Of a stretch of 64,000 nucleotides of DNA, positions 32,799 to 46,023 are shown piece by piece. Made by a program: the position numbers and the translations under genes. Under the pieces are notes generated by a model. It did no database searches. It was not told the origin of the DNA and saw only the letters and a program-made list of their open reading frames with translations. Position 1 is the stretch's first letter, and the number at the start of each line of letters is the position of its first letter. Source of the DNA: Streptomyces sp. GS7 (GTDB lineage Bacteria > Actinomycetota > Actinomycetes > Streptomycetales > Streptomycetaceae); assembly GCF_009834125.1 (NCBI RefSeq), contig NZ_CP047146.1, positions 2,659,501 through 2,723,500 on the forward strand, read 5' to 3'.

Positions 32799-33473
32799 TC
32801 AAAAGTGCCTCAGCAACTCGGCGAACTTCTCCAGCCGCAGCACCCTCGCGACCGCCGGATCCAGCTCCCCGTGCTCCAGCACCCACGTGTGGACATGCGG
32901 AATGAACACCGCGTTGAGCCCCGCCGAACGCGCCGGCAAGATATCCGACTTGGGCGAGTTCCCGATCATCCAGGTCTCCTCCGGCACCAGCCCGTGCTCC
33001 CGCGTCACCTCCTCGTACGCGGCCACGTTCTTCTCCGGCACGATGTGCACCGCCCGGAAGTGCCCGGCCAGCCCCGACGCCGCCACCTTCCGCTGCTGCT
33101 CCTCGGTGTCCCCCTTGGTCAGCAGCAGCAGCTCGTGCCGCCGCGCCAGCTCCGCCAGCGTCTCGGGCACCCCCGCGATCAACTCCATCCGGCCCCCGGT
33201 GAAGGCCGCCTCCCACTCGGCGATCCGCCCCAACTCCCCGTCCGTGGCGGCCCGTCCCCGCACCCGGGCCACGCACTCCCCGAGACTCCGCAGGAACACC
33301 TTGCTCCCGTAGCCCTGTGTCACGGCGTTCGCCGCCTCGATCCCGTCCAGTACGGCCCGCACCCCGCGCCGGTCCAGCCCCGGCCCGGCCAGCCACTCCG
33401 TGAACTCGTCGATGACCCGCTCGAAGATCACGTTGTTCTCCCACAACGTGTCATCCGCATCGAAGATCAGCAC
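32799..33473 (-). CDS. HAD-family hydrolase
   Basis: The 224-residue protein starts LIFDADDTLWENN (HAD motif I, two Asp). It has LLLLTKGDTEEQQRKVA (motif II Thr and the Lys region) and EETWMIGNSPKSDILPARSAG (motif IV). The cap is helical and of moderate size, like phosphoglycolate-phosphatase-type members. The GTG start has GGGAGGGG nearby. It is followed by the Nudix gene, and such pairs often clean up damaged nucleotides or sugar phosphates, but the substrate is unknown. Confidence 0.88.
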   Translation of the reverse strand: MLIFDADDTLWENNVIFERVIDEFTEWLAGPGLDRRGVRAVLDGIEAANAVTQGYGSKVFLRSLGECVARVRGRAATDGELGRIAEWEAAFTGGRMELIAGVPETLAELARRHELLLLTKGDTEEQQRKVAASGLAGHFRAVHIVPEKNVAAYEEVTREHGLVPEETWMIGNSPKSDILPARSAGLNAVFIPHVHTWVLEHGELDPAVARVLRLEKFAELLRHF

Positions 33474-33642
33474 CGCTACGCCCCTCCCGCCTTCCGCCGA
33501 CCCGGGCACCCTACGCAGCCACCCCGCCGACCCGCACCGGAAAATCCGCGCCGCCGCCCGGCCCGCACCGGTCACCTTCCGGCTCTCCGCGCCGTCGACT
33601 CCGCGGAGCGACAACAGACAACGCCCAGGACGAGGAACCCCC

Positions 33643-34890
33643 ATGACCACCCCCAGCACGCCCGCACCCCTCCCCACCCCCCACCGCCAGCCGCTGCTCC
33701 GCCCCGTGGACCTCGGCGGCCTGCGCCTGCCCAACCGGGTCGTCATGGCCCCCCTCACCCGCGCCCGCGCCGCCCGCGACGGGCTGCTGCCCACGCCGAT
33801 GCACGCGGACTACTACGGCCGGCGGGCCAGTGCGGGGCTGATCATCACGGAGGCGACCTGGGTCAGCAGGCAGGCGATCGGCTTCACCGGCGTCCCCGGG
33901 ATCTACAGCGCGGAGCAGGTGACCGCCTGGCGGCGGGTCACCGACACCGTGCACGCCCTCGGCGGCCGGATCGTGCTCCAGCTCTGGCACACCGGCGCCG
34001 CCTCGCACCCCGACCACCTCGGCGGCCGGCAGCCCGCGGGACCGTCGCCGGTCAACCCCCGGACGCGGTCCTTCACGCCCACCGGATTCCAGGAGACCGT
34101 CACGCCCCGCGCGATGACCCCGGCCGAGATCGCCGGCACCGTCGCCGACTACCGCGCCGCCGCACACCACGCCCGCCGCGCGGGCTTCGACGGCGTCGAG
34201 ATCGCGGCCCTCGGCACGTTCCTGATCGCGCAGTTCCTCAACCCCCGGCTCAACCACCGCACCGACGCCTACGGAGGCGACCGCACCCGCCGCCGGCGAC
34301 TGCTGCTGGAGATCGTCGACGCGGTCGCCGCACCCTGGGACGGCCGGAGCGTGGGAGTCCGCCTGGGCCCGTACCTGGACGGGGGCGACCTCTTCCGGCC
34401 CGACGCCGCCACCCTCGCCGACCACGACGACCTCGTGACCGCGCTGAACGACCACCCCGTGGCCTATCTGCACCTCCGCGGACCCGACCGCCCGGCCCCG
34501 GACACCCGCCCCGACACCGCGGCGATCGACCGCTACCGCCACCGCTTCCACGGCCCGCTGATCGCGAACAACGGATTCGACCGCGAGTCCGCGAACGCCG
34601 CCATCGAGGCCGGAACCGCCGACGCCGTCTCCTTCGGCACCCACTTCATCGCCAACCCCGACCTGGTCGCCCGCTTCGCCCTGGACCGCGAACCGGCCGC
34701 CGGTGACCCCACCACCTACTACGGCGGCGGAGCCCGCGGCTATGTCGACTACCCGGTCAGCTCCTGGCAGGACGGGCTCGGGCGACAGCTCCGGGAAACA
34801 GCGGAAGGCCGGACCCCGCTCGGGCCGGCCGCGCACCCCGGCGCGTCAGCCGCGGGCCACCTCACAGGGGGTGGTGGGGCAGACGGCTGA
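33643..34890 (+). CDS. Old-Yellow-Enzyme-family flavin oxidoreductase homologue, active site altered
   Basis: The 415-residue TIM-barrel protein is clearly OYE-like: LRLPNRVVMAPLTRARA at the N-terminus, GLIITEATWVS, IVLQLWHTGAASHPD, FLNPRLNHRTDAYGGDRT and the FMN-phosphate region AGTADAVSFGTHFIANPDL. The motif that normally reads ELHSAHGYLLHQFL here reads EIAALGTFLIAQFL. The substrate-binding His pair (or His/Asn) and the proton-donating Tyr are replaced by Ala, Gly and Phe. FMN binding is probably kept, but classical ene-reduction may not be. The C-terminal 35 residues are Gly/Ala-rich. Confidence 0.9.
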   Translation: MTTPSTPAPLPTPHRQPLLRPVDLGGLRLPNRVVMAPLTRARAARDGLLPTPMHADYYGRRASAGLIITEATWVSRQAIGFTGVPGIYSAEQVTAWRRVTDTVHALGGRIVLQLWHTGAASHPDHLGGRQPAGPSPVNPRTRSFTPTGFQETVTPRAMTPAEIAGTVADYRAAAHHARRAGFDGVEIAALGTFLIAQFLNPRLNHRTDAYGGDRTRRRRLLLEIVDAVAAPWDGRSVGVRLGPYLDGGDLFRPDAATLADHDDLVTALNDHPVAYLHLRGPDRPAPDTRPDTAAIDRYRHRFHGPLIANNGFDRESANAAIEAGTADAVSFGTHFIANPDLVARFALDREPAAGDPTTYYGGGARGYVDYPVSSWQDGLGRQLRETAEGRTPLGPAAHPGASAAGHLTGGGGADG

Positions 34891-34915: not shown

Positions 34916-35032
34916 CTACGCGACGGTGCCGCTTGGGCTGTTCGTCGTGGGGGCCGAACTCCCGTAGAGGGCGGAGGGGATGCAGGCGAGGAGCACGACG
35001 AGTGCCGCTCCAAAGAGTGTTTTCTTGATCAT
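34916..35032 (-). CDS. Small exported peptide (38 residues), candidate signal peptide for the adjacent SARP-TPR regulator
   Basis: The frame begins MIKKTLFGAALVVLLACIPS and ends with a polar Ser/Thr/Pro tail. That is a basic n-region, a hydrophobic core, and either a lipobox-like VLLAC or signal-peptidase site, leaving a mature piece of about 15-22 residues. Third positions are mostly G/C, as in real genes here. It follows the SARP-NTPase-TPR gene on the same strand, 43 bases after its stop. No clear ribosome site is present; a weak promoter (-35 TTGGAG, N18, -10 TCTACT) would give a leaderless mRNA. The family is unrecognised. Size, export signal and position match the peptides of TPR-type quorum-sensing pairs. 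Confidence 0.6.
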   Translation of the reverse strand: MIKKTLFGAALVVLLACIPSALYGSSAPTTNSPSGTVA

Positions 35033-35038
35033 GGCTGT

Positions 35039-35083
35039 AGTAGAACGCTTGACCTGGTGATGCTCCAAATTGACTTCAAGTCA
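35039..35083 (-). promoter_or_regulatory. Candidate promoter and operator of the small peptide gene
   Basis: On the minus strand TTGGAG (35068 to 35063) and TCTACT (35044 to 35039) are 18 bases apart. Just upstream is TGACTT-G-AAGTCA, a perfect 6-1-6 palindrome spanning the SARP stop codon (35071-35083). GTCAA recurs 21 bases apart in this segment, resembling the repeat spacing of SARP binding sites. All of this is suggestive only. Confidence 0.35.
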
Positions 35084-38000
35084 GTGAACGATTGTGGTAT
35101 GTCCCGCCGTTGTGTGCCCGGATCCTCGCCAGCGCATCGAGGCTCTTCCTCTTCTCCTCCGGGTCGTGGACCTCGCTGGCGAGGGTCACCGCCGCTTCGA
35201 GGTGTGCGAGCCCCGAGCGGAGGTTGCCCAGACCGGCCTCGGCGACGCCCAGGCAACGCATCGCCTGGGCCTGTTCGTGCGCCGCTCCGATGGTGCTGGC
35301 CAGGTCCAGTGCGCCGCGGTGGTGGACGACGGCCTCGTTGCTGCGTCCGGCGGCCTGGAAGGCTTCCCCGATACCGTTCAGGGCCAGGCACTCGTTCCTC
35401 CGGTCGCCCAGTTGCCGGAAGGAGAACAGCGCTTGGCGGTAGAGGTCCAGCGCCTTGTCCAGGTCGCCCGGGACCTCGAAGGCGGAGGCGAGGGTCAGTT
35501 GGATGACCGCCTGGTCCGAGCGGCTTCCGCCGGCCATGCTGATGTCCAGGGACCGCTGCAGCGTACGGAGGGCCGAGTCGCGGTCGCCCAGGGCCAGATG
35601 GAGGTCGGACAGGTTGTTCAGGGCCCGCGACTCCTCCTGGGAATCGCCCACCTCACGGAACCCCTTGAGGGCGTCCTCGAAGCACACCTTGGACGAGGCG
35701 TGCTGGCCGAGGAACAAGTGGGTGATCCCGAGGTTGTTCTGCGAGCGCGCGATCTGGAACCGGTCACCGAGGGCCCTGCGCAGCTCCAACACCGTGTGCT
35801 GCATGTCGAGTGCCGCTTCGAACTGCCCCCGATGCCAGTGGATCACTCCGAGCAGATGGATCGCCTCGACCTCCGCCGTGGTGTCTCCCGCGCCGCGGGC
35901 CAACGCCATGGCCTGGTGCGCGCGTTCGACGGCCTCCGGATACCGCCCGGAGTGAGCCAGTGTGGAGCCCAGGTCGATCAGCGCACGTGCCTCCGGCCGG
36001 GATTCGCCGGATGTCCGCCAGTACTCGACGGCGTGCCGGTGCATGCGCTCCGCTTCGGCCCAGTAGCCCTCGCTGTCGAGGAACCCCGCCAGTGCGTGGG
36101 CGAGCCGGGCGGCCGTGCGCGGGCGGCCATGGGTACGCGCATGGTGCTCGGCGGTGAACAGGGCGGTGCGCTCGGCCGCCAGCCAGCTCTTGGCCTCCTG
36201 GGCGCCGGACCAGGGAGGGATCGGGAACGGATCCGCGGCGTGCCGGATGCCGAGGCGATGGCGACGGGGGTAGATGAGCCGGTCGGCCCGGTCCGCCGCG
36301 TGGAGGTAGAAGTCGACGAGTCGGGCGACGCAGCGGTCGCGCTGGTCCGAGGTGTCCTCGGCGCGGGCGAGCGTGAGCGCGTACTCGCCGAGCAGGTCGT
36401 GGAAGCGGAACCGGTCCGGCGCCGGTTCCTGCAGGAGGTGCGAGTCGAGCAGCGCTTCCAGGACGCGTTCGGATGCGTGCGGTGGCAGTCCGGTGAGTGC
36501 GGTGGCGGCGTGGAGGCCGAACTCCTGGCCGAGATGGAGGCTGAGCGAGCGGAAGGCCGACTGCTGCTCGACGGTGAGCGCAACGTAGGACATCTCGAAG
36601 GTCCGGGCGATCTCCTCGTAGGAGTCGCGGAACTCACCGAGCCTGCCTTCTCCGCGCGACAGCCGCTGGATCAGGTGAGCGGTCGTCCACGACGGCCGGG
36701 AGGCCAGGCGTCCGGCGGCCAGTTCGAGGGCGAGCGGAAGCTGCCCGCACAGCCGCACGATCGTCGCGACATCGTGAGGGTCGCCGGCGCGCTCCGCTCC
36801 GACCAGCCGGACGAACAGCTCGGTCGCGTCGTCGACGGGGAGCACGTCGAGGACGATGGAGCGGATGCCGGGCAGTCCGGCGAGCCGGCGGCGGCTGGTG
36901 ATGATGATCAGCGAGGGCGAACTGCCCGGCAGCAGCGGGCGGAGCTGTTCGGGGCCGGCGGCGTCGTCCAGAATGATCAGGGCGCGGCGGGTGCTCAGCA
37001 TGGTGCGCCACAGCGAGCTGAGCTCCTCCAACTCCTGCGGGATGCCGGAGGCCGGCACGCCCAGGATGCGCAGCAGCGCGGTGAGCGCCGCCTCAGGGGC
37101 GAGCGGTGCCGCGCCGGGCGAGTGCGCCCGCAGGTCGAGCATCAGTTGGGCGTCGGGGAACCGCTTGCCGAGTCGGTGGGCCGCATGCAGGGCCAGCAGG
37201 GACTTGCCGACGCCCCCCATCCCGCTGATCGCCTGCAACGCGATCACACCCCCCTCGGACGAGGGCAGGTGAAGGAGCCCCATCTCGGCCTCGCGGCCGA
37301 CGAGTTCGGCGTGACTGGGGAGGTTGTTGGGCACCGGCCGGGCAGCCACCGGCCGCTTTCCGGTGAAGAGGCCGTCGACGGGCGTCCGGCGCAGAATGAG
37401 CCGGTGGAGGCGTGCCAGGCCCTCACCCGGGTCCGTGCCCAGCTCGGTACGGAGCCGGCGCCGGGCGGCCTCGTAGGCGCGCAGCGCATCGGCCTGACGT
37501 CCGCAACCGTAACTGGCCACCATCAGATGGCCGACGAGGGTCTCGTCGGTCGGGTGCCGCTCGACCAGGATGGTCAGTTCGGCGACGAGTTCGGCGAAGT
37601 GCCCCCTGCGCATCTCGATGTCGATGCGGTTCAGGGTCGCCGCGAGGTGCTGCTCGCCGAGCGCCGCCCGGGTGTTCTCCACCCACCAGCCCGTCAGCCC
37701 GGCGAGCGCCTCCCCCCGCCAGGTCGCGTCCGCCTCCTTCAACAGGGCCAGCGCCCGCTCGTCGTCGCCGCTGTCCGTCAGCGCCCGGGCCTGGCCGGCG
37801 AGGTGCTGGTAGCGGTGGTAGTCGACGCGTTCCGGCTCCACGTCGAGCGTGTAGGTGTGCGTGTGCTGTACGAGGTGGTCCTGACCGTCCGGACCGCGCA
37901 GCCTTCGGCGGATCCGGGCGGCGTAGGCATGGAGACTGACGCGCGGCTTGGCCGGCGGGTTGTCGTCCCACAAGCGGTGGATGAGCGCGTCCAGCGTGAC

Positions 38001-38123
38001 CGGCTGACCCGCGTCGATCGCCAGGGCGGCGAGGACCAGCCGTTCCTTCGCCGAGCCGAGCGGGTCACGGTGCCCGTCCGATCGCAGTTCCACCGAGCCC
38101 AGAATGAGGATGTCGAAGTCCAC
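35076..38123 (-). CDS. AfsR/SARP-type regulator with NTPase and TPR domains
   Basis: The 1015-residue protein has an N-terminal OmpR-like winged helix (FDILILGSVELRSDG to about residue 95, with AKERLVLAALAIDAGQPVTL), a bacterial transcriptional-activation domain (about 95-250), an NB-ARC NTPase with P-loop Lys307 in ISGMGGVGKSLLALHAAH and LIILDDAAG, a winged region, and about six TPR repeats from residue 660 to the end (such as SQNNLGITHLFLGQHASSKV). This is the full AfsR architecture. The GTG start was chosen because VDFDILILG is the usual beginning. TPR-NTPase regulators need a ligand, and the small exported peptide downstream is a candidate. Confidence 0.94.
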   Translation of the reverse strand: MDFDILILGSVELRSDGHRDPLGSAKERLVLAALAIDAGQPVTLDALIHRLWDDNPPAKPRVSLHAYAARIRRRLRGPDGQDHLVQHTHTYTLDVEPERVDYHRYQHLAGQARALTDSGDDERALALLKEADATWRGEALAGLTGWWVENTRAALGEQHLAATLNRIDIEMRRGHFAELVAELTILVERHPTDETLVGHLMVASYGCGRQADALRAYEAARRRLRTELGTDPGEGLARLHRLILRRTPVDGLFTGKRPVAARPVPNNLPSHAELVGREAEMGLLHLPSSEGGVIALQAISGMGGVGKSLLALHAAHRLGKRFPDAQLMLDLRAHSPGAAPLAPEAALTALLRILGVPASGIPQELEELSSLWRTMLSTRRALIILDDAAGPEQLRPLLPGSSPSLIIITSRRRLAGLPGIRSIVLDVLPVDDATELFVRLVGAERAGDPHDVATIVRLCGQLPLALELAAGRLASRPSWTTAHLIQRLSRGEGRLGEFRDSYEEIARTFEMSYVALTVEQQSAFRSLSLHLGQEFGLHAATALTGLPPHASERVLEALLDSHLLQEPAPDRFRFHDLLGEYALTLARAEDTSDQRDRCVARLVDFYLHAADRADRLIYPRRHRLGIRHAADPFPIPPWSGAQEAKSWLAAERTALFTAEHHARTHGRPRTAARLAHALAGFLDSEGYWAEAERMHRHAVEYWRTSGESRPEARALIDLGSTLAHSGRYPEAVERAHQAMALARGAGDTTAEVEAIHLLGVIHWHRGQFEAALDMQHTVLELRRALGDRFQIARSQNNLGITHLFLGQHASSKVCFEDALKGFREVGDSQEESRALNNLSDLHLALGDRDSALRTLQRSLDISMAGGSRSDQAVIQLTLASAFEVPGDLDKALDLYRQALFSFRQLGDRRNECLALNGIGEAFQAAGRSNEAVVHHRGALDLASTIGAAHEQAQAMRCLGVAEAGLGNLRSGLAHLEAAVTLASEVHDPEEKRKSLDALARIRAHNGGTYHNRSLT

Positions 38124-38349
38124 CAGCGCCCCCCAATCGCCGGTCGCTCCCCGCTCGCTGTGCACCAAAGAATGACACGGCGTCACCTGAGCCGCCAGGC
38201 CGCCTCATGCGTCGGCGGGCAATCGTCCCGGCGCTCCGCCTCGTGCACGGACCGGCCTAAATCGAACGCGATACGGGTACGCCTCACCTGACCGAGTGAG
38301 TGGGCGAGACCCGGCGCTCCGCCGCGCGGACGGGAGGAAGGCGGCCGAC
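38124..38349. promoter_or_regulatory. Shared promoter region of two divergent NTPase-TPR genes
   Basis: The 226 bases hold the promoters of the SARP-type gene and the second NTPase gene. TCACCTGA occurs twice in the same orientation (38183-38190 and 38284-38291). No -10/-35 pair stands out. The first copy lies inside the region upstream of the chosen SARP start, which could alternatively begin at 38186. Confidence 0.35.
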
Positions 38350-40809
38350 GTGGACCCGGTGACCGTTCAGGAGCTGTTCTCCGCTCTGACCGCTGCCGCC
38401 GGGGATCGGACATGGCAGGAACTGGCCGGGCTGGTCCACGCGTCGGGGCCGCGCCCCGCGCCCGCGGACCCCGTACCGGACGGCCCCGGCGCGCTGTCCC
38501 GCTTGGTCGCGGTGGCGCGGGCGGCCCCCGGCGACCCCGACCGCATCCACGCTCTCGCCCAGCGCCTGGCGGAGGAATCCTGGTCCCGTCCACCGCTCGC
38601 TCGGGATCTTCGAGCGTGGCTTGCGCGGACCGGAGCGTCCGTATCCTTCGACGCCGTGAACACCATCGGCGGATCCGCGCGGCTCACCGGACCCACCCTG
38701 CAATCACGTGAGGTGCACGGCGGGGTCCACTTCCATCAGGTCACCGCGCCGCCCGCGCCGGGCCGATTACCCGTCCCTCGTCAACTCCTGCCCGGACCAC
38801 CGCACTTCACCGGCCGTGAAGGCGACCTCACGGCACTGGACGCGTTGTTGACGGAGAAGCGCCGGGCCGGCACCGGCACCCCGCTCGTCGTGGTGGTGAG
38901 CGGCTCCGCGGGAATCGGGAAGACCGCGCTGACCTCCCGGTGGCTGGGCGGCCTCAGCGAGGCCGGCGCGTTCCCCGACGGGCAGTTGTACGTGGACCTC
39001 CGCGGACACTCGCAGGACCGCCCCGCGCGGCCCGGCGAAGTGCTGGGCCAGTTCCTGCGCGCCTACGGGATCGACCGGATCCCGGCCGAGCTGGCCGAAC
39101 AAGCGGCGCTGTGGCGCTCCGCCACCGCTGGACTCCGGGTCGCCGTCATGCTGGACAACGCGCTGAGCGCCGCCCAGGTGCGTCCCCTGCTCACCGGCGC
39201 GGCCGGCAGCCTGGTCGTGGTCACCAGCCGGCGGCGGCTGACCAGCCTCGGCGTCGACGGCGCCGCCTTCCACCAGCTCGGCCTGCTGGCAGGTCCCTCC
39301 GCCGTGGAACTGCTGGCCCGAAGGATCGGCGCCCACCGGGTCGACAGGGAACGGGCCGAGGCCCGCGAAGTGGCGGCCCTGTGCGCCGGATTGCCGCTCG
39401 CCCTGTGCCTGGCCGGCGCTCGGCTGGCCGCCCGTCCCCAGCAGTCCCTGGCGGCGATGGCCGGGGTCCTCGGCGAGGACGGAGGAGCCCTGGCGGCGCT
39501 GCGCGCCGAAGGAGAACGGGCGGTGCGCACCGTACTGGACGAGTCCTACCGGTCCCTGCCTCCCGATGCCGCTCGGGCTTATCGATGCCTGGGGCCGGCG
39601 CCGGTCGGCACGTTCGACAAGGGCGTCGCCGCGGTTGCCTGCGGACTCACGCCCGCCGAAATCGGGCCGCTCCTCGACGAGTTGATCGAGACCAACCTCG
39701 TCGAGGACCTGCCGCCGGACCGCATCGACGGCGCCGAGCGGTTCCGCCTGCACGACCTGGTCCGCGCGCACGCGAACGAGACCGCCGCCCGCCAGGACGC
39801 GCCGGGCGACCGGCAGGCCGTCGTACGCCGGATCACCGACCTCTACCTGGCCAGGGCGACGGCAGCCGAGGCGCTGCTCACCCCGAGCCACCGCAGACTC
39901 CGCCGTACGTACGCGTACGAACCGACGCCGTCGCCCGTGTTCGTCGACGACGGCGCGGCGTTGGACTGGCTGGACTCCGAACGCTCGCACCTCATGGCCA
40001 TGGTGCGCATCGCGGCGGAGGCGGGCTGGCACGCGACCGCCTGGCAACTGGTCGACGGGATGTTCCCCCTGTTCCTGCGGCTGCGGCCGTACGACCTGTG
40101 GATCGAGGCACACGAGATCGGGCTGGCCGCGGCACGCCGGGACGGTGACCGCGAGGGCGAGAGCCGGATGCTCACCTCGGGCGGGGTCGGGCTTCGGGGA
40201 GCCGGACACCACGACACCGCCGCGGAGTGGTTCGCCCAGGCACTCCGCGGCGCACAACAGGACGGTGACCGCCGCGCGCAGGCCCAGGCGCTGCACGGAC
40301 TGGGCCAGTCGCACCTGCTCGCCGGCCGATGGGAGTCCGCGGCCTCCCACCTCACCCGCGCACTCGCCCTGCGCGAGGAGATCGGCCAGCACCGCGGAGC
40401 CGCGCTCACCCGCCTCTCCCTCGGCGATCTGGCACTGGCCGAGGGCCGCCCCGCAGCGGCGATCGACCCGCTGACCCGCGCACGCGAGGAACTCCTCGCC
40501 CTGCGCGACCCCTACGACGCGGCGCGGGCGCTCGCCCTGCTCGGCCGTGCCCACGCCCGGGCATCCGGTGACCACGACCGCGCCGCGGAACTGCTCGACC
40601 AGGCACTCGGCGAGTTCACCACGACCGGTTCGGTCCACTGGCAGGCCCGGGTATGGGAGTTTCTCGGGCAGACCGCCGAGGAACGCGGAGACGCCTCCCG
40701 GGCCAGGGACTGCTATCAGCAGTCCCTGGCCCTCTACGAGCCCGTCAGCGAGCGCGACGCCCGGCGACTGCGGGCCCGATTACCCGCCCCCGGCACGGAT
40801 CCCGGTTGA
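38350..40809 (+). CDS. STAND-type NTPase with TPR repeats and two TTA codons
   Basis: The 819-residue protein has a small helical N-terminal domain (about 1-105) of unknown type and a linker with REVHGGVHFHQV (about 120-131), a motif often seen before NTPase domains in actinobacterial STAND proteins. An NB-ARC-like NTPase follows (Lys191 in VSGSAGIGKTALTSRW, VAVMLDNALSAAQVRPLL, VVVTSRRRL), then a winged helix and TPR repeats from about 600. No SARP DNA-binding domain is present. Codons 140 and 811 are TTA, so expression probably needs bldA. It is divergent from the SARP gene. Its role may be signalling or defence; neither is shown. Confidence 0.88.
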   Translation: MDPVTVQELFSALTAAAGDRTWQELAGLVHASGPRPAPADPVPDGPGALSRLVAVARAAPGDPDRIHALAQRLAEESWSRPPLARDLRAWLARTGASVSFDAVNTIGGSARLTGPTLQSREVHGGVHFHQVTAPPAPGRLPVPRQLLPGPPHFTGREGDLTALDALLTEKRRAGTGTPLVVVVSGSAGIGKTALTSRWLGGLSEAGAFPDGQLYVDLRGHSQDRPARPGEVLGQFLRAYGIDRIPAELAEQAALWRSATAGLRVAVMLDNALSAAQVRPLLTGAAGSLVVVTSRRRLTSLGVDGAAFHQLGLLAGPSAVELLARRIGAHRVDRERAEAREVAALCAGLPLALCLAGARLAARPQQSLAAMAGVLGEDGGALAALRAEGERAVRTVLDESYRSLPPDAARAYRCLGPAPVGTFDKGVAAVACGLTPAEIGPLLDELIETNLVEDLPPDRIDGAERFRLHDLVRAHANETAARQDAPGDRQAVVRRITDLYLARATAAEALLTPSHRRLRRTYAYEPTPSPVFVDDGAALDWLDSERSHLMAMVRIAAEAGWHATAWQLVDGMFPLFLRLRPYDLWIEAHEIGLAAARRDGDREGESRMLTSGGVGLRGAGHHDTAAEWFAQALRGAQQDGDRRAQAQALHGLGQSHLLAGRWESAASHLTRALALREEIGQHRGAALTRLSLGDLALAEGRPAAAIDPLTRAREELLALRDPYDAARALALLGRAHARASGDHDRAAELLDQALGEFTTTGSVHWQARVWEFLGQTAEERGDASRARDCYQQSLALYEPVSERDARRLRARLPAPGTDPG

Positions 40810-41238
40810 CGAGGCCGTGAACCGGTACGTCCTTCCCGCGCACACGAACACCGCGGACGCCAGCATCTCCAGCGGCAGCAACGCCACCACCCACATGTGG
40901 AGCAGCGAAGCGAGCGGCACGGGGTCCCACCCGCGAGCCGTCCGGCCGTCGCCGACCGCCGTCACGGCGCGGACGCCGGTCCGGGCGACCGCGACGCACC
41001 GCGAACCGCCGGCACGCAGCAGCACGAACAGAGCGCCCGGGTAGCGGCGCAGCAGCCACCTCGCCCGCTCGGCGCCCCCACTTCCGTACAGCACATCGGC
41101 GCACTGCCGCGCCGTCTCGTCGGCACAGGTGTCCAGATCGACCCCGAGGCAGTCGTGGCTCGGGACGATCACCGCGGTGCGGCAGCCGACGAGCAGCAGA
41201 CCGCTTGCCGGGCCTGCCTCACCCCTCACCGCGAGCAC
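40780..41238 (-). CDS. Hypothetical small protein with one membrane helix
   Basis: The frame encodes about 152 residues from a GTG behind GGGGGTG. It contains six cysteines scattered in a soluble N-terminal part (DCLGVDLDTCADETARQCAD) and one strong hydrophobic stretch near the end (LHMWVVALLPLEMLASAVFV). It overlaps the end of the STAND gene on the other strand by 30 bases and the end of the GT-B-like gene by 20. The family is not recognised. Its translation in phase with normal GC3 and the overlap with the upstream stop suggest a real operon member, but support is modest. Confidence 0.5.
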   Translation of the reverse strand: MLAVRGEAGPASGLLLVGCRTAVIVPSHDCLGVDLDTCADETARQCADVLYGSGGAERARWLLRRYPGALFVLLRAGGSRCVAVARTGVRAVTAVGDGRTARGWDPVPLASLLHMWVVALLPLEMLASAVFVCAGRTYRFTASSTGIRAGGG

Positions 41239-42520
41239 GCCCGCACCCCCTGTGACCTTTGTGATGACGGCCGTTGCCCCTCCGGTGCAGCGCGCGCCCA
41301 CCCCGCGCTCCGACGAGTGGGCCCGGTGGCGGCAGCACTTCGGTGACCGGGTCGTACGCGGGCTGGCCGATGCCGAGGAGCCGGTACATGAGCCGCCGCA
41401 TGTTCCGGTTGAAACGGCCCGGTTCCGAGGAGATGCGTGCGGCGATCCGCGCGTACTCCTGCGCCGGGTACTCGGCGGCCGCGTAGGCGAGTTGCTCCGT
41501 GAGGGGATGCGCCGGCGACAGCGCGGGGGCGGCGAGCGCCAGCGAGGCTCCGGGCGATTCCGGGTTGACGTCGCGCTCGGGGAACCTGGCGAGCAGGATC
41601 GCGGCCCTGGTCATCGTGGCGTACAGCGTGACCGAACCGTGGTCACCGATCACGCAGTCCGACGCGATCAGCGGCGGACGCCAGTCCACCTCCTGCGGAA
41701 GCACCGTGATGCCGAAGCGCCGGCACGCCGCCAGCCAGGCCCGCACCTGCCAGCCGCCGTGCCCCGCCCAGACGTTCGGGTGCACCAGAATCGCCGTGCG
41801 GTAGAGGTGGCGCGGCAGCTCGGCCACCAGCCGGGGGAGCAGCGCATCGAGCCGGTTGAAGGACGAGCCCGGCCCCCAGGTCGAGGTGATGAGCACCAGC
41901 TTCTGGCCGGCCCGCAGCCCAAGGGCGTTGCGGTACCGCTCCCGAAGCGACAGGCTTGCCGCGATCCGGTCGTAGCAGGCATCGCCCACCACCTCCGCGA
42001 CCGGCAGGGCTTCGGGACAGGAACGCTCCAGTTGCGTCAGCTCGTCACGGTGCGCCAGCCCGAACGCCTTCGGCACGACCTTGCCGTCCCACATCAGATA
42101 CTTGCGCCCCAGGCCGCCCACGCTCCGCGCACTCCCCGGCAGGTCGTCCGCCACACGGGACAGCTTCGTGTGTCCGGCGCCGTGCGGCAGGCGGATCAGC
42201 GGCGCGCGCACCCGCTCGGTTCCCTGGGAGCCGGCGGCCAGCGCGAGATCGAACTCGGTGCGCACCGCTTCCTCCCAGGGCAGCACGGTCGCCCCAAGAG
42301 ACCTCAGCAGCCGGTCCGCTCCGCTGTTGAACGCGTGCGGGGCGAGGGTGAACGCCACCTGCACCCGCAGATCGGATTCCAGCAGCGGCAGCAGATCGCA
42401 CAGCCGCTTCCCGTACACCTCGGTGTGAACGATGAAAAGGATCTTCTTGCACCCGGGCAGTGTCAACCACTGGCCGGGGTCCCTCCGCAAGGCCCCCGTG
42501 GGCCCGATGACGGTAGACAT
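41219..42520 (-). CDS. GT-B/UDP-GlcNAc-2-epimerase-like protein of unknown function
   Basis: The 433-residue protein starts with a Rossmann-like KKILFIVHTEVYGKRLCDLL and DLRVQVAFTLAPHAF. It has IRLPHGAGHTKLSRV, LVLITSTWGPGSSFNRLD and YRTAILVHPNVWAGHGGWQV, and then IASDCVIGDHGSVTLYATM. The last pattern matches the nucleotide-sugar or CDP-glycerol-binding C-domain of GT-B and epimerase-like proteins (D-x-G-S). Similar proteins in streptomycetes are often misnamed 'translation initiation factor 2'. Catalysis is not proven. The ATG was chosen with TGGGGGAAC upstream. It is probably co-transcribed with the small membrane protein. Confidence 0.75.
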   Translation of the reverse strand: MSTVIGPTGALRRDPGQWLTLPGCKKILFIVHTEVYGKRLCDLLPLLESDLRVQVAFTLAPHAFNSGADRLLRSLGATVLPWEEAVRTEFDLALAAGSQGTERVRAPLIRLPHGAGHTKLSRVADDLPGSARSVGGLGRKYLMWDGKVVPKAFGLAHRDELTQLERSCPEALPVAEVVGDACYDRIAASLSLRERYRNALGLRAGQKLVLITSTWGPGSSFNRLDALLPRLVAELPRHLYRTAILVHPNVWAGHGGWQVRAWLAACRRFGITVLPQEVDWRPPLIASDCVIGDHGSVTLYATMTRAAILLARFPERDVNPESPGASLALAAPALSPAHPLTEQLAYAAAEYPAQEYARIAARISSEPGRFNRNMRRLMYRLLGIGQPAYDPVTEVLPPPGPLVGARGGRALHRRGNGRHHKGHRGCGRARGEG

Positions 42521-42765
42521 GTTCCCCCAGTCGTCATGTTCGGGTCTGTCCACCGTGGCGTGCCCCGCGCGCCGGACGAAAGGCTTGCCAGGGGCTGGAC
42601 GAATCCTTGCAGTGCACGTCGGGGCCTACGTGCCGGAGGAGGACGGAGCGGGCGACCGCCGTGATCGGCACCACACCGGGGGCCGGCGGTCACACGGGGT
42701 CCCCGGCCGGGTCCGGAGAACCACCGAGCGAGGGGAACCCGCCACGGAGAAGTCATGGAAACGAC

Positions 42766-43204: not shown

Positions 43205-43277
43205 GCGAGCTCCGCGAGCGAACCATGGAGAGGTGCGAGCCCCGCGAATGCGGGTCCGAGCGAAGCGAGGTTCCGGC
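43124..43277 (+). repeat. Tandem duplication of a 77-base unit
   Basis: Two copies (43124-43200 and 43201-43277) differ at only a few positions. Each contains GAGCGAGCTCCGCGAGCG, a CCCGC-GAAT-GCGGG hairpin and CGAGCGAAGCGAGG. A third partial start (ATGAGCGAG) opens the following M20 gene. The unit length of 77 shifts the frame so that each stop overlaps the next start. Confidence 0.9.
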
Positions 43278-43281
43278 ATGA
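43201..43281 (+). CDS. Minicistron 2 (26 codons), copy of minicistron 1
   Basis: This is nearly identical to the first copy (two changes, ending EVPA). Its TGA overlaps the ATG of the M20 peptidase gene. Neither copy has an internal ribosome site before the overlaps, so the chain of ATGA junctions would couple translation from the first strong ribosome site to the peptidase. Confidence 0.4.
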   Translation: MSELRERTMERCEPRECGSERSEVPA

Positions 43282-44603
43282 GCGAGGCGCAGCCGTCCCG
43301 TACGGTCACCGGCGAGGACGAGGTGGTCGACCTGTGCCGGGATCTGATCAGGTTCGACACCAGCAACTACGGCGACCACTCGGGACCGGGGGAGCGCGCC
43401 GCCGCCGAGTACGTCGCGGAGAAGCTCGCCGAGGTCGGTCTGGAGCCGCAGATCTTCGAGTCCCACAAGGGGCGCGCCTCGACCGTCGCGCGCATCGAGG
43501 GCGAGGACCGCTCGCGCCCCGCCCTGCTGATCCACGGGCACACCGACGTCGTACCGGCCAACGCGGAGGACTGGACCCACCACCCGTTCTCCGGGGAGAT
43601 CGCCGACGGCTGCGTCTGGGGCCGCGGTGCGGTCGACATGAAGGACATGGACGCGATGACGCTGGCGGTCGTGCGCGACCGGCTGCGTACGGGGCGCAAG
43701 CCGCCGCGGGACATCGTGCTGGCGTTCCTGGCGGACGAGGAGGCGGGAGGTACGTACGGCGCGCGGTACCTCGTCGACCACCACCCCGATCTCTTCGAGG
43801 GCGTGACCGAGGCGATCAGCGAGGTCGGCGGGTTCTCCCTCACCGTCAACGAGAACCTCCGGCTGTATCTGGTGGAGACGGCCCAGAAGGGCATGCACTG
43901 GATGAAGCTGACCGTGGCCGGATCGGCCGGGCACGGCTCGATGATCCACCGGGACAACGCCATCACCGAACTGTCCGAGGCCGTCGGGCGGTTGGGGCGG
44001 CACGAGTTCCCGGTGCGGGTGACTAAGACGCTGCGGGCCTTCCTCGACGAGCTGGGGGACGCGCTGGGCACCGAACTCGACCCGGAGAACATGGACGAGA
44101 CGCTGGCCAAGCTCGGCGGTATGGCCAAGCTGATCGGCGCCTCGATGCGGAACACCGCCAACCCGACGCAGCTGGGCGCCGGTTACAAGGTCAACGTGAT
44201 CCCGGGGCAGGCCACCGCGCATGTCGACGGGCGCTTCCTGCCGGGCTACGAGGAGGAGTTCCTGGCCGACCTGGACCGGATTCTGGGGCCGCGGGTCCAG
44301 CGCGAGGACGTGCACGCGGACAAGGCGCTGGAGACCACCTTCGACGGTGCGCTGGTGGACGCGATGCAGTCGGCGCTGCAGGCCGAGGACCCGATCGCGC
44401 GCGCGGTGCCGTACATGCTCTCCGCGGGCACGGACGCCAAGTCCTTCGACGACCTCGGGATCCGCGGGTTCGGGTTCGCGCCGCTGAAGCTGCCGCCGGA
44501 GCTGGACTTCGCGGGGATGTTCCACGGTGTCGACGAGCGTGTGCCGGTGGACGGGCTGAAGTTCGGTGTGCGGGTGCTGGACCGGTTCATCGAGCAGAGC
44601 TGA
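43278..44603 (+). CDS. M20-family zinc peptidase (ArgE/DapE/CPG2-like)
   Basis: The 441-residue protein has the M20 metal motifs: LLIHGHTDVVPA (His and Asp), GRGAVDMKDMDA (bridging Asp), AFLADEEAGG (Glu-Glu), EVGGFS and the C-terminal metal His in FAGMFHGVDERVPVDGL. A dimerisation domain with KGMHWMKLTVAGSAGHGS lies in the middle. These enzymes remove terminal residues from dipeptides or acyl amino acids. The ATG overlaps the stop of the preceding minicistron, so translation is probably coupled. The exact substrate is unknown. Confidence 0.95.
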   Translation: MSEAQPSRTVTGEDEVVDLCRDLIRFDTSNYGDHSGPGERAAAEYVAEKLAEVGLEPQIFESHKGRASTVARIEGEDRSRPALLIHGHTDVVPANAEDWTHHPFSGEIADGCVWGRGAVDMKDMDAMTLAVVRDRLRTGRKPPRDIVLAFLADEEAGGTYGARYLVDHHPDLFEGVTEAISEVGGFSLTVNENLRLYLVETAQKGMHWMKLTVAGSAGHGSMIHRDNAITELSEAVGRLGRHEFPVRVTKTLRAFLDELGDALGTELDPENMDETLAKLGGMAKLIGASMRNTANPTQLGAGYKVNVIPGQATAHVDGRFLPGYEEEFLADLDRILGPRVQREDVHADKALETTFDGALVDAMQSALQAEDPIARAVPYMLSAGTDAKSFDDLGIRGFGFAPLKLPPELDFAGMFHGVDERVPVDGLKFGVRVLDRFIEQS

Positions 44604-45204: not shown

Positions 45205-46023
45205 ATGAGACAGGTCGCGAGAAAGGGCCTGATCACCATGGCCGCCGCGGGCGGAGTGCTCGCCATGGCCACGGGGTACGCACAAGCGGACTCCGGGGCA
45301 GCGGGGGTCGCGGCGAACTCGCCCGGTGTCGGATCCGGCAACGTGGTCCAGGCGCCGGTGGACGTACCGGTGAACGTCTGCGGCAACAGCGTCAATGTGG
45401 TGGGAGCGCTCAACCCGGCATTCGGCAACGACTGCGCCAACGGGTCCGGCGGGCACCACGGCCACGGCCACGGCAAGCACCGGCGCCCGACCGGCGGGCA
45501 CGACGCCAACGCCCATGGCGGGGCCTCGAATTCGCCCGGTGTCGCGTCCGGCAACGTGGTCCAGGCGCCGGTGGACGTACCGGTCAACGTCTGTGGCAAC
45601 AGCGTCGACGTGGTCGGCGTGGCGAACCCGGCCGTCGGCAACGACTGCGGCAACGCCTCGCCGGCGGGACCCGGCACCCCGCACCGGCCCGGCCATCCGC
45701 CGGCTCCGGGTCCGGGCACGCCGCACAGCCCCGGCCAGCCGCACCACCCCGGCACCCCGGGCCAACCGCACCACCCGGGGGGCGCGCACGGGTCGCGACC
45801 GGGCACCCCGCAGGGCCCCGGCGGAGCGCACTCCCCGCACGCCCCGGGGGTGGGATCGCAGCATGCGACCGCACCGCACGCCCGAGGGGTGACGCCGATC
45901 GCGCGCGGGGAGCAGCTCGCGCAGACCGGTGCCGGGGTGCTCGGCTACGCGGTTCCGGCCAGTGCCGGGCTGCTGCTCGGAGGCGCGGTGCTCTACCGCC
46001 GGGCGCGTACCGTCCGTAGCTGA
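45205..46023 (+). CDS. chpC: Long, sortase-anchored chaplin (ChpC-like)
   Basis: The 272-residue protein has a signal peptide (about 1-28) and two chaplin domains (about 34-76 and 106-148; VNVCGNSVNVVGALNPAFGN and VNVCGNSVDVVGVANPAVGN). The domains are separated by a His-rich linker (GGHHGHGHGKHRRPTGGH). A long Gly/Pro/His stalk, the LAQTG sortase signal, a membrane helix (YAVPASAGLLLGGAVLYRR) and a basic tail follow. It is anchored to the cell wall by a class E sortase and nucleates the short chaplins. The name chpC is by position beside chpH; chpA and chpB have the same architecture. Confidence 0.93.
   Translation: MRQVARKGLITMAAAGGVLAMATGYAQADSGAAGVAANSPGVGSGNVVQAPVDVPVNVCGNSVNVVGALNPAFGNDCANGSGGHHGHGHGKHRRPTGGHDANAHGGASNSPGVASGNVVQAPVDVPVNVCGNSVDVVGVANPAVGNDCGNASPAGPGTPHRPGHPPAPGPGTPHSPGQPHHPGTPGQPHHPGGAHGSRPGTPQGPGGAHSPHAPGVGSQHATAPHARGVTPIARGEQLAQTGAGVLGYAVPASAGLLLGGAVLYRRARTVRS

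Follow-up and report, generated by a model that had tools for sequence, protein, structure and literature searches.

A small gene behind a large SARP regulator of Streptomyces sp. GS7 is a candidate source of its peptide ligand

We analyzed a stretch of 64,000 nucleotides from Streptomyces sp. GS7 (contig NZ_CP047146.1, positions 2,659,501 to 2,723,500; hereafter the window), the genome of which is one contig of 9.07 Mb. In the window, a large SARP regulator is followed on the same strand by a 38-codon frame, and we consider that this small gene probably encodes the precursor of a peptide that serves as the cognate ligand of the preceding regulator. The comparison of related loci established, at the level of sequence, the pairing of the two genes and the conservation of a short core at the protein level. 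The system is most likely a peptide ligand with its receptor, following an RRNPP-like logic built on a SARP-STAND-TPR protein.

The regulator is a large SARP; it contained a SARP half (a winged-helix DNA-binding domain and BTAD), followed by NB-ARC and C-terminal TPR domains. The matches to BTAD (2.2e-35), NB-ARC (7e-10), and TPR_12 (6.6e-36) scored above the Pfam cut-offs, and the winged helix (Trans_reg_C) was marginally below its cut-off, with 26.0 bits versus 26.2. The nearest solved structure by sequence was that of AfsR (8k60), and the possibility that the regulator is AfsR itself was rejected, as it scored 569.6 bits against the NCBIfam AfsR equivalog cut-off of 1430. The structural model of the C-terminal part revealed an RRNPP-like TPR superhelix fold, as far as a model can show it; the best VIA matches included Rap, MalT domain III, NprR, and AimR, and the best alignment was with Rap.

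The 38-codon frame translates as MIKKTLFGAALVVLLACIPSALYGSSAPTTNSPSGTVA. As the earlier note had described, it lies 43 bases past the regulator stop on the same strand and has a coding-like bias, with a GC content of 0.53/0.58/0.82 by codon position. The next gene behind it is a convergent flavin oxidoreductase gene (33400-34890, + strand), so the frame is not the leader of a downstream gene. The two closest relatives of the window regulator (L087 and L010, 87% and 83% identical) each had a 38-codon frame at the same place with a cysteine at residue 17, and the tail was the variable part across these three frames. The earlier note had taken this tail of 15-22 residues to be the recognized part; this proposal was not borne out, as the tail varied while the LACIPS core was conserved and was often extreme C-terminal in the relatives. 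Among 66 precursors, the core formed the protein C-terminus in 19, and at most eight residues followed it in 35 (these 19 included). It is the LACIPS core that is likely recognized by the regulator. A similarity search with the 38-residue peptide against 199 Streptomyces genomes gave one convincing match, the window's own copy (2.4e-19), besides eight matches that were all weak (best, 0.005), and the 50-residue reading of the frame revealed no candidate in the protein database.

Cores resembling Cys-Ile-Pro-Ser recurred in small frames behind the first 47 relatives of the regulator. After these loci, the pattern C[ILM][PA][STY] was fixed for regulators of at least 700 bits, in a same-strand frame of 20-120 residues located 40-420 nucleotides past the regulator stop, and further loci were fetched afterwards. 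The fixed pattern was found behind 38 of the 77 regulators scoring at least 600 bits, which we refer to as the branch, and behind none of the 46 lower-scoring relatives. By regulator score, the counts were 15/16 at 900 bits or more, 23/50 at 700-900 bits, and 0/11 at 600-700 bits. The antisense strand contained no instance in 123 rows, and null windows over the same loci contained the pattern in 18 of 1801 cases (approximately 1%). The 46 lower-scoring rows include 12 that were fetched later, two of which repeat earlier loci, as well as some partial matches and two rows (L027 and L075) that fell inside the branch in the regulator tree. The co-conservation that the earlier note had asked for was found in part, in that the small frame recurs with the regulator branch. 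Counting hydrophobic small frames in general was less useful; they were present in the sense direction in 59/77 branch rows versus 4/36 others, but the antisense count of 35/113 showed that such a count discriminates poorly. No hydrophobic frame was seen behind the lower-scoring regulators of Microbispora, Amycolatopsis, and Lentzea or behind the sister SARP regulators, where several of the stop positions were wrong.

Other core classes were read by eye, namely CIPT, CIPY, CIAY, CIAS, CII[IM], CMPM, [IF]WM, [IL]WC, and VYIMF; the first four fall within the fixed pattern, and the remaining classes are post hoc. With these classes included, a core was found in 67 of the 77 branch rows, which correspond to the 66 precursors counted above plus L107. 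The classes were fixed before the regulator tree was viewed, with the exception that two single variants (L121 and L072) were merged into CIAY afterwards. In the tree of 87 regulators, the core classes tracked the clades: ten states required ten changes (minimum, nine) versus 34-42 changes in 200 shuffles, as counted over 60 rows with the 27 rows of no class or a rare class left out. Across these sequences, the core co-varied with the receptor. The earlier claim that the TPR regulator has its peptide encoded next to it was supported to the extent that the pairing recurs with the branch and the core changes with the receptor. When the core expected from the clade was sought in 15 rows, it was found in three (L114, L127, and L126). 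Additionally, one regulator clade inside the branch (L102, L110, and L118) had no recognizable peptide, which may represent a loss or a peptide located elsewhere.

We then considered whether the conserved unit was the peptide or the nucleic acid. In core residues 2-4, the third codon positions contained 0.14-0.31 bits over the 38 loci with the pattern, and the core serine was encoded by all six codons (TCN and AGY). Because the third positions were almost free, the conserved thing is the peptide and not a DNA element; the first and second positions provide no evidence, since the fixed pattern itself dictates the residues. A DNA or RNA element that chances to be open is a very improbable explanation for this block: the block is intergenic, and its first core codons are nearly fixed (TGC in 34 loci and TGT in four for the cysteine, followed by AT in 36/38), but the free third positions and the six serine codons argue against this explanation, as do the inverted repeats near the regulator stop, which were little over chance (9/77 rows at p≤0.05, about four expected).

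The earlier note had also pointed to a 13-bp palindrome and spaced GTCAA repeats between the two genes. The palindrome exists, but it overlaps the regulator stop codon, is unremarkable against shuffles (p about 0.08), and is of unclear conservation; within 90 bases after the stop, a span that cuts off this palindrome, inverted repeats were found in 6/64 rows. The two GTCAA copies are real (TTGAC on the + strand at 35070-35074 and 35049-35053), but none of 15 other loci contained them in the first 90 bases past the stop. A conserved operator composed of these elements was therefore unsupported. L087 has a palindrome of its own directly past the regulator stop, unlike that of the window (GATCAATTAGGTTGATC, 6-base arms, p about 0.09), which may be due to chance, and nothing notable was found in the inverted repeats at the regulator stops of L010 and L011.

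Several results weigh against the proposed ligand. The fixed pattern missed 39 of the 77 branch rows, and the newly fetched loci weakened it: it was found in 13/36 at 700 bits or more and in 13/45 with the rows of 600-700 bits included (32 missed), the same count of 13/45 having been obtained first with a wider limit of 600 nucleotides. The wider classes are a reading by eye, ten of the 77 rows had no core even in this reading (L068, L074, L094, L100, L102, L103, L110, L118, L129, and L131), and the clade-expected core was not seen in 12 of the 15 rows searched. The sequence of the frames is almost free to vary outside the core. In particular, differences by codon position over whole precursors were 133/106/153 in nine pairs (p=0.014), indicating weak constraint, and 50/45/55 in four ungapped pairs (p=0.61); in the window frame and its two closest relatives, the proportions of nonsynonymous (pN) and synonymous (pS) differences outside the core were 0.35-0.43 and 0.38-0.51, respectively. 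There is no good Shine-Dalgarno sequence ahead of the ATG of the window frame. TPR folds are generic, and the top Foldseek rank for the TPR model was LGN. Finally, nine of the 66 precursors (L012, L058, L092, L093, L095, L108, L114, L126, and L128) lack a hydrophobic stretch.

Two of these results, the weak ribosome-binding site and the slight constraint outside the core, would also suit a chance open frame in the window; we regard this as extremely improbable, given that the core recurs at 38/77 loci against a null of about 1%. The new loci, when divided by genus afterwards, contained the fixed pattern in 9/12 cases in the genus of the window and in 4/33 cases in other genera, and one of these four (L113) is probably a false match inside a signal segment. 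Because of this division, the fixed pattern is taken to describe the Streptomyces part of the branch, and the genera beyond Streptomyces appear mostly to need different cores.

A hydrophobic stretch of ten residues before or including the core was present in 57 of the 66 precursors at a crude threshold, and several precursors (e.g., L014, L063, L066, and L120) had, by eye, a Sec-like signal peptide with an AxA site ahead of the core. Secretion is likely for most precursors because so many carry the stretch and only nine do not; the export proposed in the earlier note would not be universal. The lipobox has G, A, or S before the cysteine. In the matching loci, the residue before the core cysteine was V, T, I, A, Q, R, or S, with A or S in 4/38 and G in none; the LLAC of the window would itself fit a lipobox, and a lipoprotein reading of the family was rejected. 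Alternatively, the peptide could act inside the producer, as a ligand or inhibitor encoded in cis, with the hydrophobic segment as a membrane anchor or an incidental feature. The nine precursors without the segment would fit this proposal, as would two CIAS frames (L097 and L026) with an in-frame ATG just 10 codons ahead of the stop, but the hydrophobic stretch of the great majority and the Sec-like segments make it unlikely.

For a secreted cognate ligand, the following route may be proposed. The hydrophobic N-terminal segment would export most precursors, and the product would be trimmed and taken up again. In the window, the recognized piece would be released from where the hydrophobic segment ends and would comprise approximately LACIPS or CIPS; in the relatives it would be the equivalent core, often at or near the C-terminus. 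The re-imported peptide would bind the groove of the TPR superhelix and release the NB-ARC switch, upon which the SARP half would activate its promoters. The translation, processing, export, uptake, and binding of the peptide are steps that we infer, and so are the targets and the direction in which the switch acts.

The coordinates of the features are listed in the table below.

Table 1. Features of the window around the regulator and the small frame
Feature	Positions	Strand	Remarks
Large SARP regulator	35076..38186	-	1036 aa from GTG 38186; GTG 38123 is an alternative possible start
TPR-bearing C-terminal part of regulator	35079..36524	-	residues 555-1036; structure modeled
13-bp palindrome	35071..35083		overlaps regulator stop codon; conservation unclear
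38-codon frame, putative signal-peptide precursor	34916..35032	-	ATG start; 50 aa if read from a TTG 12 codons upstream in frame
LACIPS, end of hydrophobic segment	34973..34990	-	CIPS, conserved core, at 34973-34984; from comparison with relatives
NB-ARC-TPR (STAND) protein without SARP half	38296..40809	+	divergent; conserved neighbor
P0003, GT-B fold, TagF/CDP-glycerol glycerophosphotransferase-like	41219..42553	-	conserved neighbor, syntenic with regulator
P0004, 173-aa frame behind P0003	40780..41301	-	relatives in 5/15 loci
M20-family peptidase (PRK07906 subfamily), past transferase gene	43233..44603	+

Two neighbors were conserved, and the STAND and transferase genes were the only families common to more than three of 17 loci. 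The divergent STAND gene had matches in 15/15 loci, two of which (L011 and L017) were the regulator itself, leaving 13/15; its product may act as a partner or as a second receptor. Relatives of P0003, some of which are called CDP-glycerol glycerophosphotransferase in UniRef entries, were present in 13/15 loci, with L017 cut short upstream. They also adjoin sister large SARPs (G005, G075, G097, G109, G122, G124, and G136), and no instance of the fixed pattern was seen behind these; a dedicated role of P0003 in modifying the peptide is therefore improbable, and the protein may represent an output of the system. P0004 had no match in Pfam or NCBIfam. A Chaplin-domain protein with two ChpA-C stretches is encoded near the locus (45205-46023, + strand).

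These neighbors bear on a further explanation, in which the product of the small gene is a precursor that matures into a ribosomally synthesized and post-translationally modified peptide (RiPP); the TagF-like transferase and the STAND-TPR proteins would process it or respond to it, somewhat as in the FxSxx-COOH systems. The HaaT (1.3e-126) and FxSxx_TPR (8.1e-35) models, which are NB-ARC-TPR models from peptide systems, matched the regulator below their cut-offs, a GT-B transferase is a conserved neighbor, and passages of PMC7159879 associate AP-ATPases bearing TPRs with processed peptides whose precursors are variable and whose C-terminal peptides are more conserved. However, no radical-SAM or zincin match was found among the window proteins compared with Pfam (the M20 peptidase is present), the neighbors at the other loci having been clustered and not scanned; no third family joins the two shared ones, and the transferase relatives also occur beside the sister SARPs. 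We consider this explanation quite improbable. In its logic, this AP-ATPase-TPR peptide-processing system with FxSxx peptides still appears to be the nearest published relative found, going by the same passages: an NB-ARC-TPR protein stands next to a rapidly evolving precursor whose C-terminal peptide is more conserved, whereas the motif differs and the SARP output half is particular to the present system.

The cognate-ligand reading resembles the RRNPP pairs (Rap-Phr, NprR-NprX, PlcR-PapR, and AimR-arbitrium) in its TPR receptor, adjoining small precursor gene, and short core, the divergence of which follows that of the receptor. RRNPP receptors have an XRE-type helix-turn-helix or a Rap-type N-terminal half; in contrast, the receptor here would be a SARP-NB-ARC-TPR protein. 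Enterococcal pheromones derive from lipoprotein signal peptides, and in them, as in the window, the core ends a hydrophobic signal segment; unlike in these pheromones, the cysteine here lies inside the conserved core and seldom follows A or S. NosP is reportedly a small SARP without TPRs that senses the precursor of its own pathway rather than the product of a separate small gene dedicated to signaling. A passage of PMC10972967 describes NosP as responding to peptidyl ligands of the nosiheptide precursor, which would make it a precedent for a SARP that senses a peptide. AfsR and other large SARPs (RslR3 and PolY; PMC10972967) have the identical domain order; the window regulator differs from AfsR in its score below the equivalog cut-off and in the absence of the fixed pattern behind the lower-scoring relatives. 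Passages of PMC10075063 and PMC13220807 place RRNPP signaling in Firmicutes; for actinomycetes, the usual account in these passages is one of small molecules, e.g., gamma-butyrolactones. In the open-access literature, as judged from titles and abstract openings, we found no report of this peptide-regulator pair, and such a signal and receptor pair in Streptomyces and its relatives looks undescribed.

Whether the Streptomycetaceae branch of large SARPs as a whole consists of peptide-gated STAND switches with their own pheromone types (CIPS, CIPT, CIPY, CIAY, CIAS, CIIM, FWM, IWC, and others) seems to us evenly balanced; if so, actinomycetes would have a quorum-sensing family based on peptides, in which numerous pherotypes connect straight to an activator of the antibiotic type. 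To our knowledge, large SARPs have no accepted ligand, and the regulator branch now gains a specific ligand candidate for most of its members. If the proposal is true, the sensing role of the TPR and NB-ARC halves in some large SARPs would be explained, and short synthetic peptides could turn on silent regulons.
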